A stretch of 30,890 nucleotides of DNA from a virus, in the IMG/VR virus record IMGVR_UViG_3300023210_000143, positions 1-30,890 of that record; one strand, written 5' to 3'. Both the position numbers and the translations under genes were made by a program. This document shows, piece after piece, positions 4,119 to 30,890 of the stretch (position 1 is its first letter; each line of letters opens with the position of its first letter). The notes under the pieces are model-generated. The model was given only the letters and a program-made list of their open reading frames with translations, had not been told where the DNA came from and did not search any database.

Positions 4119-4147
4119 TTGACAAGCTCCGCCCCGTTTGGTATAGT
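4119..4147 (+). promoter_or_regulatory. Consensus sigma70-type promoter
   Basis: TTGACA (4119-4124), a 17-nt spacer, then TATAGT (4142-4147). This is a near-perfect housekeeping promoter, the best -35/-10 pair in the window with exact spacing. It starts transcription about 30 nt before the RBS of the 4182 regulator. CCCCGT in the spacer and ACGGGG just before the RBS form a loose inverted repeat (spanning about 4133-4174), which may be chance. Confidence 0.85.
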
Positions 4148-21563: not shown

Positions 21564-21815
21564 ATGACTGATTATAGCGGTGTAATTGAAAACTTTGACA
21601 AGATCATGCAGGTGATTTACCTATTAGTTGTTATCATTGCGGGCTTGAAGGTTGAGCGACATGTGACCGTGAAAGAAGCGAACCACGTGATTGACCTGTT
21701 GGATAGTCTGGCAAAGAAAACAAAGACGAAGCTGGATGATAGCTTGGTGGGACTGGCGCGCCTAATTAATAGCTATCGTGCCGATACCGTAACCAAAGTT
21801 ACGCCTCCCAATTGA
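21564..21815 (+). CDS. Holin-like small membrane protein
   Basis: 83 aa with one hydrophobic segment at about residues 13-28 (KIMQVIYLLVVIIAGL) after a short acidic N-terminus, then an amphipathic basic tail. RBS TAGGAGCG. It is the last gene before the late terminator, where holins are common. A single-span, class III-like holin or antiholin is plausible, but no endolysin partner is visible in the window, so the function is tentative. Confidence 0.55.
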   Translation: MTDYSGVIENFDKIMQVIYLLVVIIAGLKVERHVTVKEANHVIDLLDSLAKKTKTKLDDSLVGLARLINSYRADTVTKVTPPN

Positions 21816-21866
21816 CTAGCGGTGGACCTGTTACATGGGTTGAGCCGTGACACCATCCCCAGCAAC

Positions 21867-21895
21867 TTGACAGATGATCGTCAATCGCATAAACT
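21867..21895 (+). promoter_or_regulatory. Sigma70-type promoter just before the late terminator
   Basis: TTGACA (21867-21872), a 17-nt spacer, TAAACT (21890-21895). The -35 is inside TTGAC-AGATGATC-GTCAA (21867-21884), an inverted repeat that could be an operator. Transcription from here would end after about 57 nt at the 21919-21959 terminator, giving a tiny RNA, or would read through into the control region if anti-terminated. Confidence 0.45.
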
Positions 21896-21918
21896 AACAT
21901 AGAACTAAGTATCTTATC

Positions 21919-21959
21919 AAAAAGAGTCGCTCCTAGGATGTGTGGGGTGGCTCTTTTTT
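21919..21959 (+). terminator. Strong intrinsic terminator of the late operon
   Basis: AAAAAGAGTCGCTCC pairs over 15 positions with GGGGTGGCTCTTTTT, including several G-U pairs that only form in the plus-strand RNA, with a 10-nt loop and a final run of six T. It is placed 100 nt after the holin-like gene. Confidence 0.9.
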
Positions 21960-21977
21960 GAGTTAGGCTATAAATAG

Positions 21978-22041
21978 AAAACGCCCCGAGTTACCGAGGC
22001 GATTCTAAAACAAGGAGGACTGCATGAATAAACTTAGTATA
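21978..22041 (-). ncRNA. Candidate minus-strand small RNA b (anti-SD loop)
   Basis: The minus-strand promoter is TTGCCT-18 nt-TATACT with extended TGC before the -10 (plus 22036-22041). The predicted start is near 22029. The terminator hairpin CGCCTCGGTAACTCGGGGCG (22001 to 21982, 8-bp stem with two G-U pairs, loop TAAC) is followed by TTTT. The RNA is about 52 nt. Its unpaired 5' part contains UCCUCCUU, complementary to Shine-Dalgarno sequences, and covers the RBS and ATG of the 17-aa ORF at 22024. The G-U pairs would be A-C mismatches in plus RNA, so the hairpin is designed for the minus strand. Confidence 0.5.
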
Positions 22042-22077
22042 GCACAGAACTGCACAATGAGGCAAACCGTGGTATAA
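22024..22077 (+). CDS. 17-aa small ORF with strong RBS
   Basis: MNKLSIAQNCTMRQTVV, preceded by CAAGGAGGACTGC, an excellent Shine-Dalgarno. Too short to be judged from composition. The plus promoter at 22050-22078 lies inside it and therefore cannot express it, and no good promoter is seen upstream. It may be a leader peptide expressed by read-through, or the SD-like sequence may instead reflect the anti-SD loop of minus-strand RNA b. Confidence 0.3.
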   Translation: MNKLSIAQNCTMRQTVV

Positions 22078-22078
22078 T
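22050..22078 (+). promoter_or_regulatory. Promoter of the MT-A70 operon
   Basis: CTGCAC (22050-22055), 17 nt, TATAAT (22073-22078), with extended TGG directly before the -10. The start would lie near 22085, giving a leader of about 100 nt that is fully complementary to minus-strand RNA c. Confidence 0.75.
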
Positions 22079-22095
22079 AAGGTATCGCAAAAAGC

Positions 22096-22170
22096 AAAAC
22101 GCCCCGAGTTACCGAGGCGATAAGTTGAAAACTTTCCATCAAGATAATTAGACTTGATGAGATAAGTATA
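22096..22170 (-). ncRNA. Candidate minus-strand small RNA c (antisense to MT-A70 leader)
   Basis: Minus-strand TTGTAT-18 nt-TATACT with extended TGG (-10 at plus 22165-22170); the -35/spacer overlaps the RBS and start of the MT-A70 gene. From about 22159 the RNA begins with the perfect hairpin CATCAAG-N9-CTTGATG (22159 to 22137). A small AAGTT-TTC-AACTT stem follows, then the same terminator as RNA b (22119 to 22100) and TTTT (22099-22096). The length is about 64 nt. A 5' hairpin starting at the first base, a linker and a terminator are the normal layout of a stable regulatory RNA. Confidence 0.55.
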
Positions 22171-22185
22171 CCACAGGAGGGTACG

Positions 22186-23325
22186 ATGATACAAATTGAT
22201 AATGAATTTAGAGACTTATTACCGCCATTGTCCGAAGAGGAACGCGCTATTTTAGAAGCGAGCCTTATTGCTGACGGCTGTCGAGACTCGTTAGTATTAT
22301 GGAATGACATATTGATAGACGGGCACAACCGTTATACCATATGCTCCGCGCATAATATCCCATTTGAGACAGTATTATACGACTTTGCAGACCGTGACGC
22401 AGTGAAGCTGTGGATGATACGAAACCAATTCTCACGACGTAACCTAAACGCCTATCAACGCTCAGAATTAGCCTTGCTGATGGAGGGGATATTTCAGGCT
22501 AAGGCTAAAGAGAATTTAGTGACTAGCACGGGCGGAAATGATCCCCGGCCTTTGCCAACATTGGCAAAGGCGGGGATCATCGACACTCGTAAAGAAACAG
22601 CAAAAATTGCAGGGGTATCTAAAGGGACTTTACACAAAGCAAAAACAATTAAAGCGAAAGCTGACGATGATACAAAGGAACAATTGAGACGTGGTGAGGT
22701 GAGCATTAATCAGGTGTATCAGCAGGTGCAACGTGATGAAAAGAAAGAAGTGCGAGCCAAGCAACTTGAGACACACATAGATAATTTAGATGTCGAGTCT
22801 AAAAAATATCGTATTATCTACGCTGACCCACCGTGGAAATATAACGAGGAACAGCATACAACGCTTGGCGATGTTCACACGGTAACGTTAGGAGCGCATT
22901 ATCCGAGTATGAGTATATCCGAGTTATGCGAATTGCCTGTCAGAGACTTAGCGAATGATAACGCGGTTTTGTTTTTATGGGTAACTTCCCCATTGCTGGC
23001 AGAGTGCTTTGAGCTCATAGATGCGTGGGGCTTCAAGTATAAAACTTCAATGATATGGGATAAAGTCAAGCACAATGTTGGTAATTATGTATCGGTTCGC
23101 CATGAATTGCTTTTGATATGTACACGGGGCAGTTGCACACCTGACAACCGAAAATTATATGATAGCGTTCAAGAGTCACCACGAACCGCGCATAGTGTAA
23201 AACCTGAGTTATTTAGACATATCATTGATGATATATATCCACATGGGAATAGGATAGAATTATTCAGGCGTGGTGATCCAATCAGCAATTGGGATATATG
23301 GGGCAATGAAGCAAATGAACGGTAA
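22186..23325 (+). CDS. ParB-like/MT-A70 adenine methyltransferase fusion
   Basis: 379 aa with RBS ACAGGAGGGTACG. Residues 1-100 are a ParB/Srx-like domain (LIADGCRDSLVLWNDILIDG, then HNRY at 47-50; FADRDAVKLWMIRNQFSRRN). About 136-180 is an HTH (TAKIAGVSKGTLHKAKTIKA). Residues 205-375 are an MT-A70 N6-adenine methylase with ADPPW (213-217), TLGAHYPSMSISEL, and SP..AE...DAWGFKYKT as SAM- and base-binding elements. Such fusions are common in phages, where they methylate DNA and sometimes mimic ParB binding. A 20-bp-stem palindrome (22538-22580) lies in the linker between the first two domains. The next gene overlaps its 3' end. Confidence 0.92.
   Translation: MIQIDNEFRDLLPPLSEEERAILEASLIADGCRDSLVLWNDILIDGHNRYTICSAHNIPFETVLYDFADRDAVKLWMIRNQFSRRNLNAYQRSELALLMEGIFQAKAKENLVTSTGGNDPRPLPTLAKAGIIDTRKETAKIAGVSKGTLHKAKTIKAKADDDTKEQLRRGEVSINQVYQQVQRDEKKEVRAKQLETHIDNLDVESKKYRIIYADPPWKYNEEQHTTLGDVHTVTLGAHYPSMSISELCELPVRDLANDNAVLFLWVTSPLLAECFELIDAWGFKYKTSMIWDKVKHNVGNYVSVRHELLLICTRGSCTPDNRKLYDSVQESPRTAHSVKPELFRHIIDDIYPHGNRIELFRRGDPISNWDIWGNEANER
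22538..22580. repeat. Near-perfect 20-bp-stem palindrome inside the MT-A70 gene
   Basis: Left arm 22538-22558 and right arm 22561-22580 are reverse complements over 20 bp except for one extra G (47/48) in the left arm; the loop is CA. It encodes NDPRPLPTLAKAGII in the linker between the ParB-like and HTH parts. Such a long dyad is not expected by chance in coding DNA; it could be an in-frame palindromic insert, an mRNA attenuation hairpin, or a protein-binding site. Confidence 0.85.
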
Positions 23326-28690: not shown

Positions 28691-28884
28691 GTAAGCAAGA
28701 AACGCTAAAATTACTAAAGTCAAAACTAAACCTGATGGACAAACGTATCTCAGCGGTCAATCACCATTTTGCATTAGGGGGAACGTTTTGCGACTATTGT
28801 AATCAAATGGTCCCGTTGGAACAAAAGCGAGACGCTATCCTTGATGAGATAGCAATGATTAACAACCATGAGTTGCTAGACTAA
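28687..28884 (+). CDS. Small hypothetical protein with CxxC
   Basis: 65 aa, coupled to the previous gene by ATGA overlap. Helical (LKLLKSKLNLMDKRISAVNH, then HFALGGTF) with CDYC at about residues 37-40 and acidic C-terminus. Possibly metal-binding but only one pair of cysteines is present. No family recognised. Confidence 0.6.
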   Translation: MSKQETLKLLKSKLNLMDKRISAVNHHFALGGTFCDYCNQMVPLEQKRDAILDEIAMINNHELLD

Positions 28885-28912
28885 ACATACCCCAACAGAA
28901 TAGGAGAATGTT

Positions 28913-29221
28913 ATGAATCATCCATTTAGTTACCTACAGAAATATGCCGACCAAGCCATAGAGGTTTTGCAAGACTTGCCAATGGGGAATTTTCAGATTC
29001 ACCAATGGAATAGAGAGAAAACGGCTGAGGGAATAGACCTAGTTGAATTATCGTTTCGTATTTTCTATTATTGCCGCTGTTGTGATGGTTGGATTGAGGG
29101 GCATATGAAAATTGAGTATGTCAATAACATCCAACCGATGGCATTAGCTGGAAGGCAAGGAACGGCACTGGTTTGCAGACGTTGCAATTACGAAATTAGT
29201 TTTAGGGGGATGGTGTCATGA
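28913..29221 (+). CDS. Zinc-ribbon-like hypothetical protein
   Basis: 102 aa; RBS TAGGAGAATGTT before ATG 28913. YYCRCCDGW (C54, C56, C57) and VCRRCNYEIS (about C88, C91) form a typical paired-cysteine zinc ribbon. The rest is helical N-terminally. No known phage homologue recalled; a nucleic-acid-binding role would be typical. Confidence 0.65.
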   Translation: MNHPFSYLQKYADQAIEVLQDLPMGNFQIHQWNREKTAEGIDLVELSFRIFYYCRCCDGWIEGHMKIEYVNNIQPMALAGRQGTALVCRRCNYEISFRGMVS

Positions 29222-29436
29222 GTAACGAAATCAATGCACGGAATCTAAACATAGCCATCCAAGATCAATACGATGCTGACGAGCATGTATTCAAAGTTGG
29301 GGATTATGTAACTATCAACAGTCACTCATCCCGTGTACCGTATCATGTCACCGAATTAATTGGTGAAGAACACGCGATGTTAGACGATAGTTACGCCTAT
29401 CCATATAAATTCAGTGAGTTAACACATATTGATTGA
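29218..29436 (+). CDS. Small beta-domain hypothetical protein
   Basis: 72 aa, ATG overlapping the preceding stop. FKVGDYVTINSHSSRVPYHV, then EEHAMLDDSYAYPYKFSELT, is a small SH3-like beta-barrel pattern (compare the 3584 product). Last gene before a 295-nt non-coding stretch. Function unknown. Confidence 0.6.
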   Translation: MSNEINARNLNIAIQDQYDADEHVFKVGDYVTINSHSSRVPYHVTELIGEEHAMLDDSYAYPYKFSELTHID

Positions 29437-29458
29437 GCCTGTCATCTAAAGTCAATGT

Positions 29459-29518
29459 ATTAGTGTCTTGCACAGTGGGGTCATCTCGTATACAATTAGA
29501 GTGTATCTAAAGAGAAAA
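29459..29518 (+). promoter_or_regulatory. 60-bp promoter repeat, copy 1
   Basis: TTGCAC (29468-29473), 17 nt, TACAAT (29491-29496), followed by TTAGA-GTGTA-TCTAA (29496-29510) at the expected start point, an operator-like dyad. The 60 bp differ from copy 2 at only four positions, including the -10. Confidence 0.8.
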
Positions 29519-29555
29519 ACCATTTTGAGATTCATATTTAGTAGAGAGGTAGCCT

Positions 29556-29570
29556 ATGCACAACATGTAA
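29556..29570 (+). CDS. Four-codon leader ORF (MHNM)
   Basis: ATG CAC AAC ATG TAA preceded by AGAGAGG at 6-nt spacing, about 50 nt after the promoter start. It may be a leader peptide with a role in attenuation or ribosome loading, or chance. Confidence 0.2.
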   Translation: MHNM

Positions 29571-29590
29571 CACGCGGTAGATGTCTATAT

Positions 29591-29675
29591 AAAAAAGTGA
29601 ATCCCTGACAAGTAACAAGCGAGTCAAGGATGGGTGGGGCAAAAACAGTTAACTGTTCATCTGCCTCCAAGTATA
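29591..29675 (-). ncRNA. Candidate minus-strand small RNA d
   Basis: Minus-strand TTGCGT-17 nt-TATACT with extended TGA (-10 at plus 29670-29675). The RNA begins near 29663 with AACAG-UUAA-CUGUU (29657 to 29644). A C-rich single strand (GCCCCACCC) follows, then ATCCTTGAC / GTCAGGGAT (29631 to 29601; 9 bp with one G-U, 13-nt loop), TCAC and T6 (29596-29591). The G-U pair is an A-C mismatch in plus RNA. Predicted length is about 73 nt; antisense to the leader of the 29732 gene. Confidence 0.55.
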
Positions 29676-29731
29676 TCAAAACCCCACCCACAACGCAACC
29701 TACGGACAATAGAATAGAATAGGAAAACATT

Positions 29732-29941
29732 ATGACGTTCCCAAAGTATATTTACCCAACAGTTTGCCCCAAATGTGGTAGTAAGAATATAGACGGATGT
29801 GAAGGCACAACCTTTGACGGTTTGGCATTGGGACATCTGGCAAATTGGTGTTACGCATGTAAAACCCCAGACGGGAAGGGGTATGCTTGGTCTACGGGAT
29901 TGATTGAAGATACAGAGGATACCGACCATAAGCAAGACTAA
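29732..29941 (+). CDS. Zinc-ribbon protein (Lar-like)
   Basis: 69 aa; RBS AATAGGAAAACATT. PTVCPKCGSKNI (C12, C15) and NWCYACKTPDG (about C40, C43) form a classical treble of CxxC pairs as in small phage zinc ribbons of the restriction-alleviation (Lar) type, with the characteristic 'CPKCGS'. An anti-restriction role is possible but not demonstrated by the sequence. It lies between the two promoter-repeat/antisense-RNA units. Confidence 0.65.
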   Translation: MTFPKYIYPTVCPKCGSKNIDGCEGTTFDGLALGHLANWCYACKTPDGKGYAWSTGLIEDTEDTDHKQD

Positions 29942-29945
29942 CGCC

Positions 29946-30005
29946 ATTAGTTTCTTGCACAGTGGGGTCATCTCGGTTACACTTAGAGTGTATCTAAAGA
30001 GAAAA
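29946..30005 (+). promoter_or_regulatory. 60-bp promoter repeat, copy 2
   Basis: TTGCAC (29955-29960), 17 nt, TACACT (29978-29983), then TTAGA-GTGTA-TCTAA. It begins 5 nt after the zinc-ribbon gene and would drive the 30129 gene and replication initiator. Confidence 0.8.
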
Positions 30006-30078
30006 GCCCACTGTTTATTGAGAACAGAAGGGCTGAGGAGTCGTAAACAGACCGTTAACGGTGTCTACCACTAGCATA
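30001..30078 (-). ncRNA. Candidate minus-strand small RNA e
   Basis: Minus-strand TTGATT (plus 30096-30101), 17 nt, TATGCT with extended TGG (plus 30073-30078). RNA from about 30066: ACCG-UUAA-CGGU hairpin (30063 to 30052), a CU-rich strand with ACUCCUC, then AGCCC-TT-CTGTT-N7-AACAG-T-GGGCT (30034 to 30005) and TTTTC. About 66 nt. The 5' hairpin with UUAA loop, linker and terminator reproduce the layout of RNA d although the sequences differ. Confidence 0.55.
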
Positions 30079-30128
30079 CCATAAGCGACCCCTCGAATCA
30101 ACCACCACAGGATAGGAGTTATAGAGTT

Positions 30129-30329
30129 ATGAGTAAGCAAACACAAGAGATTGAGAATGTTGACGATATCGACGTTGCAAAAGAACTTGCAAAAGACGGA
30201 TGGCGACTTTTTTGTATACATATGCTCCCAGAAAAATACGACTTTGCGCTGGATATTGTCATGGTACGTGATATTGTTGAGAGTGAACCAATTGAAGCCC
30301 CTCAAGCACAACCTACGCAAAAAGAATAG
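30129..30329 (+). CDS. Small hypothetical protein
   Basis: 66 aa; RBS ATAGGAGTTATAGAGTT. Acidic with a Pro/Gln-rich C-terminus (EPIEAPQAQPTQKE). The middle DGWRLFCIHMLPEKYDFALD is a compact amphipathic segment. No family recognised. Overlap-free neighbour of the initiator. Confidence 0.55.
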   Translation: MSKQTQEIENVDDIDVAKELAKDGWRLFCIHMLPEKYDFALDIVMVRDIVESEPIEAPQAQPTQKE

Positions 30330-30342
30330 GAGTCATTTTATC

Positions 30343-30890
30343 ATGAGTAAGAAACAAGACGGACAGAACATATCATCTGAGTCAGGCAATAAGTATTTTA
30401 CAATGATCGAGAATATCGCATTGCTTGAGCTAAAACCACATCAATTAGCCCTCTACGCTAATTACAAGCGGACATGTGGGGACGGTGGCACAACATTCAA
30501 ATCATTGGCGACGCTGGCAAAAGAAACTCATATGGGTAAAAGCAAAATTACATCCACGCGGAAAGAGTTAGAGGAACTTGGATACATAAAGGTAACTCAA
30601 AAGCCAGATGAGGGAGGTAATATCAACCAGCCCCCTGATGTCGTGGTGTGCGACCTAATGCCACGTAATGTTTCGCACTTCCAGACCCTACCGCAGAATA
30701 ATAGCCCCCTACCGCAGAATAATAGCCCCCTACCACGAGATGATACCAAAGAAGAACCCTTTAAGAAGAACTCTTTAATAAGAGAAAAAGAAACTACTTT
30801 GTCCGACAAATCGGACGGCGCAAATTCCACTACAGAAAAACAGGGATACACCAAAGACCATTTGCAATATGCGATAACGTTTGAGTGGAA
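30343..30890 (+). CDS. Replication initiator-type winged-helix protein (3'-partial)
   Basis: The frame runs off the right edge; 182 codons are visible from ATG 30343 (RBS AATAGGAG). Residues about 30-90 (LKPHQLALYANYKRTCGDGG, TTFKSLATLAKETHMGKSKI, STRKELEELGYIKV) are the winged-helix of phage replication proteins of the lambda O/DnaD-like/replisome organiser type. A low-complexity linker follows with three heptads LPQNNSP, LPQNNSP and LPRDDTK (about 116-136), encoded by 21-bp direct repeats. The C-terminal part begins GYTKDHLQYAITFEW and would hold the helicase-loader-interacting domain. Confidence 0.8.
   Translation, partial: MSKKQDGQNISSESGNKYFTMIENIALLELKPHQLALYANYKRTCGDGGTTFKSLATLAKETHMGKSKITSTRKELEELGYIKVTQKPDEGGNINQPPDVVVCDLMPRNVSHFQTLPQNNSPLPQNNSPLPRDDTKEEPFKKNSLIREKETTLSDKSDGANSTTEKQGYTKDHLQYAITFEW
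30686..30748 (+). repeat. 21-bp tandem repeats (iteron-like) within the initiator gene
   Basis: Two exact copies of CCCTACCGCAGAATAATAGC+C (30686-30706, 30707-30727) and a degenerate third (30728-30748, 14 of 21 identical). They lie in the coding linker of the initiator. An A-rich stretch (30748-30800) and inverted repeat GTCCGA-CAAA-TCGGAC (30801-30816) follow. This is the layout of lambdoid origins, in which iterons inside the initiator gene are bound by its own product. Confidence 0.7.
30801..30816. repeat. Dyad next to the iterons
   Basis: Perfect 6-bp inverted repeat GTCCGA / TCGGAC with CAAA between. Inside the initiator coding sequence, just after the A-rich segment. May be part of the origin. 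Confidence 0.5.

Follow-up and report, generated by a model that had tools for sequence, protein, structure and literature searches.

Candidate cis-antisense RNAs with a common plan and replaced stems in the early leaders of a phage group

Antisense control of replication genes is classical in plasmids, where antisense attenuators of the pIP501 and pT181 kind have one specificity per plasmid; the leader of the pIP501 replication initiator gene (repR) has mutually exclusive folds. In phages, the sar RNA of P22 covers the ribosome site of ant, the OOP RNA of lambda is located beside the replication gene O, and the c4 RNAs of P1/P7 and the CI RNA of P4 confer RNA-based immunity with leader pairing and are made from the leader's own strand. 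To our knowledge, the described phage antisense RNAs are each single-copy.

RNAIII of pIP501 is a convergent antisense RNA of 136 nt in the repR leader that brings about premature termination of the message (PMC4981023), and pT181 and pIP501 are both given as cases of antisense attenuation (PMC5415839). The sar RNA, encoded by the phage and 68/69 nt long, blocks synthesis of the antirepressor by pairing with ant mRNA (PMC12197685; PMC2629481); a table in the former source classes it as trans (PMC12197685). OOP is a small antisense RNA of 77 nt made from the pO promoter (PMC12197685), and it acts on cII via RNase III, with cleavage near the 3' end (PMC12197685; PMC5415839). ArrA of Bacillus subtilis, a chromosomal, DnaA-repressed antisense RNA of 267 nt, lies over the dnaA 5' untranslated region (PMC12112137). 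In the accessible portions of reviews, the phage examples appear as individual RNAs and not as a multi-copy family. Among the matches listed in the literature, which left subscription papers mostly uncovered, none was a multi-copy phage antisense family with replaced stems.

The stretch of DNA analysed here (the window) comprises the 30,890 bases of a virus record in IMG/VR. Judged from its genes, the record is that of a phage: it encodes a terminase with phage relatives, a portal protein, an Erf-like annealing protein and a replication initiator, the last two in the early region. The early promoter is duplicated as part of a 63-bp repeat (copies at 29459 and 29946, 92% identical), and two elements, E1 (29698-29591) and E2 (30101-30003), both sit in leaders built from the duplicated promoter. 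Read along the minus strand, each element begins with an extended -10 promoter, which is followed by a palindromic hairpin, then a linker rich in C, then a hairpin resembling a terminator. A preliminary description of this DNA had proposed such a layout for two minus-strand small RNAs, and all of its parts (promoter, hairpins with UUAA loops, single-stranded C-rich linker, terminator stem) are present on reading or in the predicted fold. The two leaders contain the following features.

29468-29496, plus strand: early (sense) promoter of E1, TTGCAC-17-TACAAT, by direct reading, within the 63-bp repeat
29591-29663, minus strand: predicted antisense RNA of E1, about 73 nt
29601-29631, minus strand: terminator stem of the E1 antisense RNA, 9 pairs, then TCACTTTTTT; one pair is G-U on minus and C.A on plus
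29631-29639, plus strand: sense 5' arm of E1, TGGGTGGGG, complementary to the antisense linker
29644-29657, minus strand: 5' hairpin of the E1 antisense RNA, perfect palindrome AACAGTTAACTGTT, AACAG-UUAA-CUGUU
29670-29698, minus strand: antisense promoter of E1, TTGCGT-17-TATACT, extended TG
29682-29690, plus strand: sense 3' arm of E1, CCCCACCCA, within the antisense promoter spacer
29732-29941, plus strand: 69-aa gene under E1
29955-29983, plus strand: early (sense) promoter of E2, TTGCAC-17-TACACT, by direct reading, within the 63-bp repeat
30003-30066, minus strand: predicted antisense RNA of E2, about 64 nt
30005-30034, minus strand: terminator stem of the E2 antisense RNA, AGCCC/GGGCT plus CTGTT/AACAG, then TTTCTCTTT
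30035-30043, plus strand: sense 5' arm of E2, GAGGAGTCG
30051-30062, minus strand: 5' hairpin of the E2 antisense RNA, palindrome ACCGTTAACGGT, ACCG-UUAA-CGGU
30073-30101, minus strand: antisense promoter of E2, TTGATT-17-TATGCT, extended TG
30086-30094, plus strand: sense 3' arm of E2, CGACCCCTC, again within the spacer of the antisense promoter; one position is G-U on minus and an A.C mismatch on plus
30129-30329, plus strand: 66-aa gene under E2
30295-30303, plus strand: cassette junction, with what is left of an E4-type element (AAGCCCCTC arm) now within the last part of the 66-aa gene; similarity to locus L019 of a relative resumes at 30291
30343-30888, plus strand: replication initiator gene, downstream of E2 and truncated by the window end (phrog_270, 5.7e-15; Pfam HTH_36)

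The minus promoters had been called proper, which is generous: the -35 boxes match consensus at 3/6 (E1) and 4/6 (E2) positions and the -10 boxes at 5/6 and 4/6. The pattern TTG-N17-TGnTATnnT occurs three times in the window (the minus promoters of E1 and E2 and a plus-strand site at 4119) against 0.35 expected. Simple sigma-70 and terminator scans of the window list neither the promoter nor the terminator of either element. Fold z scores for the two units are -2.09 and -2.35 on the minus strand and -1.25 and -2.16 on the plus strand; the plus strand folds nearly as well, so folding energy alone cannot decide the strand. Taken whole, the window has 7 palindromes of at least 12 nt, which is no excess over its 20 shuffles (mean 8.45). 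At gathering score, no Rfam 15 family matches the window, and none matches L019, L110 or L112, the loci that hold the further elements described below; three matches in window positions 29400-30200 are all far below threshold. Neither the 69-aa product under E1, for which 'zinc ribbon' was a label of the preliminary description, nor the 66-aa product under E2 has a Pfam or PHROG match. The E1 leader has about 80 extra bases (29520-29600) between the early promoter and the terminator stem, and these hold a ribosome-site-like GAGAGG and a 4-codon frame (MHNM).

Taken by analogy, the elements would be a variation on plasmid and phage antisense control, with an outline like that of plasmid antisense control. 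As in cis-encoded antisense RNAs, a promoter sequence stands on the opposite strand and the predicted RNA overlaps its target fully (6/6 elements). The likeness to pIP501 and pT181 is a convergent antisense RNA, here a predicted one, in an initiator leader; by complementarity the leaders described here have exclusive pairings, between which antisense binding may decide. Unlike in those systems, no intrinsic terminator was seen on the sense strand of these leaders; unlike pIP501, each phage record has two or three specificities, some on non-replication cassettes. ArrA is likewise antisense over the 5' untranslated region of a replication initiator, but the accessible text on ArrA describes no interchangeable stems (PMC12112137). 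OOP differs in not being antisense to its neighbour's leader, whereas the RNAs predicted here occupy the stretch from the sense start point to the gene downstream and are not antisense to the 3' end of the upstream gene, a feature of OOP. In contrast to the c4 and CI RNAs, the RNA here is convergent with the leader.

Six distinct elements were found in three records: E1 and E2 in the window, E3 and E4 in locus L019 of a near relative (G001, IMGVR_UViG_3300034774_000181; loci L002, L005, L007, L019 and others), which has E1 as well, and E7 (locus L110) and E8 (locus L112) in G005 (IMGVR_UViG_3300032259_000003), a record reached via its terminase (75% identical). The preliminary remark that the two window elements share a layout and not their stems thus extends to all six, in which the plan recurs with the stems replaced. 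In G001, E3 precedes a phosphoadenosine phosphosulfate reductase-like gene and E4 directly precedes the replication initiator gene; E7 and E8 each stand before replication genes. A replication initiation gene is directly downstream, or one small gene further, at E2, E4, E7 and E8. Within the 76,588 bases of G005, some 38.6 kb separate two related replication modules, and the record may be two joined or neighbouring phages.

For searches, the plan was specified as a minus promoter, a 9-nt spacer arm pairing with a linker 22-52 nt past the -10 box, and a palindrome of at least 10 nt between them. In 402,421 bases (the window, G001 and fetched pieces of 12 relatives) this gave seven copies, six of them distinct, and none in five dinucleotide shuffles; the E1 copies of the window and G001 are identical, and the second adds no evidence. 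With the palindrome requirement dropped, the same set gave 18 matches versus 5-10 in shuffles. A larger set of 646,328 bases of partly overlapping loci (pieces of G001 and 12 others plus 80 terminase loci) yielded only the known elements, and three mononucleotide shuffles of its first 25 loci yielded none. The terminase search had returned 236 relatives, of which 80 were kept; the promoter pattern was searched in 22 records, of which G001 and 12 others were fetched, whole or in part. A set of 20 mostly more distant records (two shared with the 22) was searched for the promoter pattern alone, with four matches. The plan search found no element in the other fetched relatives, some of them fragments, for example G004 (80% terminase identity) or G006, G011, G012, G013 and G015 (56-63%).

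Two promoter patterns and a leader pattern run over viral contigs found true elements in G001 only, and 11 matches in genome contigs included none with an element on reading. Protein searches led to G001 only (initiator and helicase), to G001 and G005 (Erf), and to G001 plus one locus, L003, without an element on reading (69-aa protein). A 36-nt match on a Nostoc plasmid was judged from its annotation to be chance. All six elements found so far come from three records of one phage group.

Each antisense linker is the reverse complement, exact or near, of its own promoter's spacer. In sense orientation the arm pairs are TGGGTGGGG/CCCCACCCA in E1 and, with one mismatch, GAGGAGTCG/CGACCCCTC in E2. 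Because the linker is complementary to the spacer of its own promoter, a helix, stem B, can form within the sense leader; the spacer (the sense 3' arm) is outside the predicted minus RNA, whose linker repeats the 3'-arm sequence, the same or nearly so. Over the six elements, 51 of 54 stem-B cells pair, with both-side changes at 9/9 pairs, and the inner hairpin pairs in 24/24 cells, with both-side changes at 4/4 pairs; these helices were counted on hand-chosen arms, which leans towards structure, and the independent control is the shuffles of the whole plan. Hand-chosen arms took the place of a covariance model because MAFFT misplaces the arms, of E4 at least (alignments A1 and A2). Arms swapped between elements form a mean of 4.7 of 9 pairs (maximum 7), versus 8-9 for cognate arms. 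Stem B together with a palindrome arose in 0/10,000 shuffles of the single E1 leader, 1/20,000 of E2, 0/20,000 of E3 and 1/20,000 of E4.

E7 and E8 lie in the two related replication modules of G005; from one to the other, both promoters and the ribosome-site block are nearly unchanged, and terminator stem, arms and palindrome have all been exchanged. For the E1 leader, the window and G001 do not differ in 29483-29839, but 29207-29464 is equally unchanged, and the comparison is uninformative on purifying selection. In E2-E4, 8-9 bp of the early promoter spacer, around ACAGTGG, could pair with the terminator stem in its 5' half; the sites of this sense-promoter spacer repeat are window 29959-30014 (E2) and L019 3764-3821 and 4825-4884. 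The linker/spacer inverted repeat, the 63-bp duplicated promoter, the relatives and two minus-strand units at 22194 and 22065 go beyond the preliminary description.

The strand on which the structure is kept can be read from wobble pairs. In the terminator stems, 6/6 wobbles (E1, E3, E4, two in E7, E8) are G-U on minus and A.C or C.A on plus, with no reverse case; three are internal (E1, one in E7, E8), and the other three (E3, E4, one in E7) are at helix ends whose inclusion was the analyst's choice. The terminator stem looks maintained for the minus RNA. Wobbles in stem B carry no strand signal, two favouring minus (E2, E7) and one favouring plus (E8). The preliminary description had attributed to both window terminators G-U pairs that fail on plus, which is so for one pair in E1 and for none in E2; it had also set against its own reading any pairing kept on the plus strand alone, and here the terminator stem speaks for minus and the linker stem is divided.

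All six elements have a minus promoter with TTG, a spacer of 17 or 18, TGn and TAnnCT; its -35 box matches consensus at 3/6 positions in five elements and at 4/6 in E2. Such a promoter is borne by 0.8-4.1% of shuffled leaders for each of E1-E4. The six predicted minus RNAs all fold as a 5' hairpin, an open linker and a terminator stem, which in E8 requires the full length (a 56-nt cut folds otherwise). Each ends in a hairpin followed by a T-rich stretch (6/6), and CAC precedes the T run in E1, E7 and E8.

Two further small-RNA-like units, A and B, stand in tandem in the interval from 21815, where a plus-strand gene ends, to the start of the methylase gene (22186).

21976-22029, minus strand: predicted RNA of unit B, its ends approximate; its 26-nt terminator is identical to that of unit A
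22036-22065, minus strand: promoter of unit B
22094-22158, minus strand: predicted RNA of unit A, its ends approximate; it is antisense to the methylase leader (gene at 22186)
22165-22194, minus strand: promoter of unit A, TATACT, extended TG, spacer 18

On reading, positions 22050-22078 hold the plus promoter of the methylase leader, CTGCAC-17-TATAAT. The 26-nt terminator is present once in G001. The promoter form with a terminator within 110 nt, a filter that misses E1, occurs three times in the window (E2 and units A and B), against a mean of 0.26 and a maximum of 2 in 100 shuffled windows, and nine times in 334,249 bases of relatives, versus 1-3 in five shuffles. Unit A has the layout of the elements, but units A and B are not counted as members because neither passes the plan search; by that test they are without the linker/spacer repeat. 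Opposite unit B, a 17-codon frame MNKLSIAQNCTMRQTVV lies at about 22024-22077 on the plus strand with a strong ribosome site, AAGGAGG. Beyond a promoter-like site, the minus strand of 21780-21920 has a predicted fold of -26.5 kcal/mol for 100 nt; the stretch is present also in G001, and this segment has no tRNA and no Rfam match. In a different setting, G005 has near-identical promoter-hairpin-terminator units on the minus strand at L109:1350 and L110:18846, with an RNA of about 64 nt.

We consider it probable that the elements encode cis-antisense RNAs, as predicted transcripts, each specific for its own leader and acting via competing leader folds. The early promoter would start a leader of about 130-230 nt, and the convergent minus promoter inside it would make an RNA of about 60-73 nt ending near the sense start point; the predicted end lies 12-14 nt inside the sense start in E2-E4 and about 90 nt inside it in E1, with its 80-nt insert. 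By complementarity, the leader's G-rich 5' arm has alternative partners, its own C-rich 3' arm or the antisense linker. The 5' arm would be made first, and the gap of about 40 nt before the 3' arm could allow capture by the antisense RNA. Antisense RNA bound to the 5' arm would free the leader's 3' side and so lower cassette expression; a leader that folded first, closing stem B, would resist the antisense RNA. With arm, hairpin and terminator-stem sequences peculiar to each cassette, each RNA would act on its own leader only, and its likely use would be to control the dosage of early and replication genes, or to give immunity to phages that share the specificity. The earlier suggestion that the RNAs regulate these leaders in cis thus gains from the comparison, through the six elements and their own-leader pairing, from which we infer the regulation itself.

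Cofolding of antisense RNA and leader gains -76 to -89 kcal/mol for cognate pairs, which is unavoidable because of their full complementarity, and -4 to -18 kcal/mol for the non-cognate pairs compared, those among E1-E4 and between E7 and E8. The non-cognate gains suggest that cross-talk between elements would be slight.

As to the last step, our first guess would be that the freed 3' side pairs with the ribosome site and closes it; RNase III or Rho would be the alternatives. From the predicted 5' end of the antisense RNA to the ribosome site there are 42-57 nt in 6/6 leaders, and the Shine-Dalgarno sequence and start codon are never covered. Since the antisense RNA stops short of the ribosome site, simple masking is out; in this the six RNAs differ from P22 sar. 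In 6/6 leaders the stretch from the 3' arm to the ribosome site has nowhere four T in a row, so an intrinsic terminator there is out and classical attenuation is unsupported; E4 has a four-T run past the ribosome site, where reading shows no hairpin immediately ahead of the T, and the simple scan lists no plus-strand terminator in either window leader. With the antisense region removed from the fold, the ribosome site and start codon become less open in 5/6 leaders, E1 being the exception. Compared with shuffled 3' segments, the access test gave 0.72 (E1), 0.18 (E2), 0.007 (E3), 0.42 (E4), 0.063 (E7) and 0.163 (E8), with a combined p of 0.015 over the six leaders for a test devised after the data were seen. 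The modelled effect on access is suggestive and far from uniform, being clear alone only for E3, with nothing in E1 and E4; translational attenuation was accordingly rejected as a uniform rule and kept as a lead.

A further pairing of the leader with the stretch before the ribosome site spans 9 bp in E4 and 8 bp in both E7 and E8, lengths reached in 5, 9 and 7 of 500 shuffles, respectively; E1 and E2 have none of at least 6 bp, and the 6 bp in E3 are at chance level. In E7 and E8 this pairing competes with the terminator stem. The freed 3' segments of E1-E4 have more C than G. We do not press the idea of a Rho site in the freed C-rich segment: a similar C-rich run (28884-28906) precedes the ribosome site of a gene that has no element.

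Other readings account for parts of these observations. If the sense leader alone mattered, for anti-termination, stability or as a riboregulator, the minus promoter and terminator would be incidental; stem B can indeed form in the sense RNA and not in the predicted antisense RNA, whose start falls inside the stem, the sense leaders fold well, and a third pairing lies upstream of the ribosome site in E4, E7 and E8. The terminator-stem wobbles, six to none for minus, and an extended -10 minus promoter at the same place in 6/6 elements, found in so small a share of shuffled E1-E4 leaders (0.8-4.1%), make this unlikely. The palindromes might instead be DNA operators through which a dimeric repressor controls the minus promoter or blocks the sense polymerase. 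Perfect palindromes of 12-14 bp stand directly past the minus start in 6/6 elements, AAGCATATGCTT is identical in E3 and E7, and a palindromic loop, unnecessary for a plain hairpin, is nevertheless present in 6/6. However, the three elements of G001 have three different palindromes, and an operator would explain neither the arms nor the terminator stem; we regard this reading as distinctly unlikely. The preliminary description also allowed action in trans through the CU-rich linker, which might pair with ribosome sites of phage or host messages. The linkers are CU-rich and single-stranded in the predicted folds, and unit B has UCCUCC in a hairpin loop. Yet the linker sequence differs from element to element and follows the 5' arm of its own leader, as expected for a cis target; trans action is unsupported and appears very improbable.

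The position of the elements beside replication initiator genes would also suit an RNA-based replication origin or primer, or an OOP-like control at the origin, and RNA-based prophage origins exist according to the accessible text of one source (PMC7157519). Against this, E1 and E3 directly precede other genes (for the 69-aa protein and the phosphoadenosine phosphosulfate reductase-like protein), there are two or three elements per record, and a gene for an initiator protein is present; we hold this the least probable of the four. An invertible promoter switch, suggested by the inverted repeats that flank the -10 box, was rejected, the repeat differing per element and the -35 box lying outside it. 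A type I toxin-antitoxin system also seems unlikely from the genes concerned, which bear on it weakly: the E1 and E2 products are without a Pfam or PHROG family, and E3 stands before an enzyme gene and E4 before the initiator.

Aligned to G001, the window loses similarity at 30044, within E2, and regains it at 30291, next to the E4 3' arm; the genes flanking E7 and E8 differ on both sides. From this break and resumption and these differing neighbours, the elements seem to mark the edges of exchangeable gene cassettes, each with its own lock. We offer tentatively, as a possibility short of an even chance, that these phages carry mutually orthogonal RNA locks, in which each early or replication cassette has its own antisense key, the 3' half of the leader is a built-in copy of that key, and the spacer of the antisense promoter doubles as the self-pairing arm; under the same proviso, the locks would diversify by replacement of whole stems, like plasmid incompatibility types, and immunity or dosage would be set cassette by cassette.

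If this is true, the elements would be a natural series of orthogonal RNA switches in which the plan is fixed and nearly every stem is swapped, and would offer ready-made parts for RNA circuits. The evolution of antisense specificity could be studied in them, as could the question whether phage immunity groups can be set by RNA alone.
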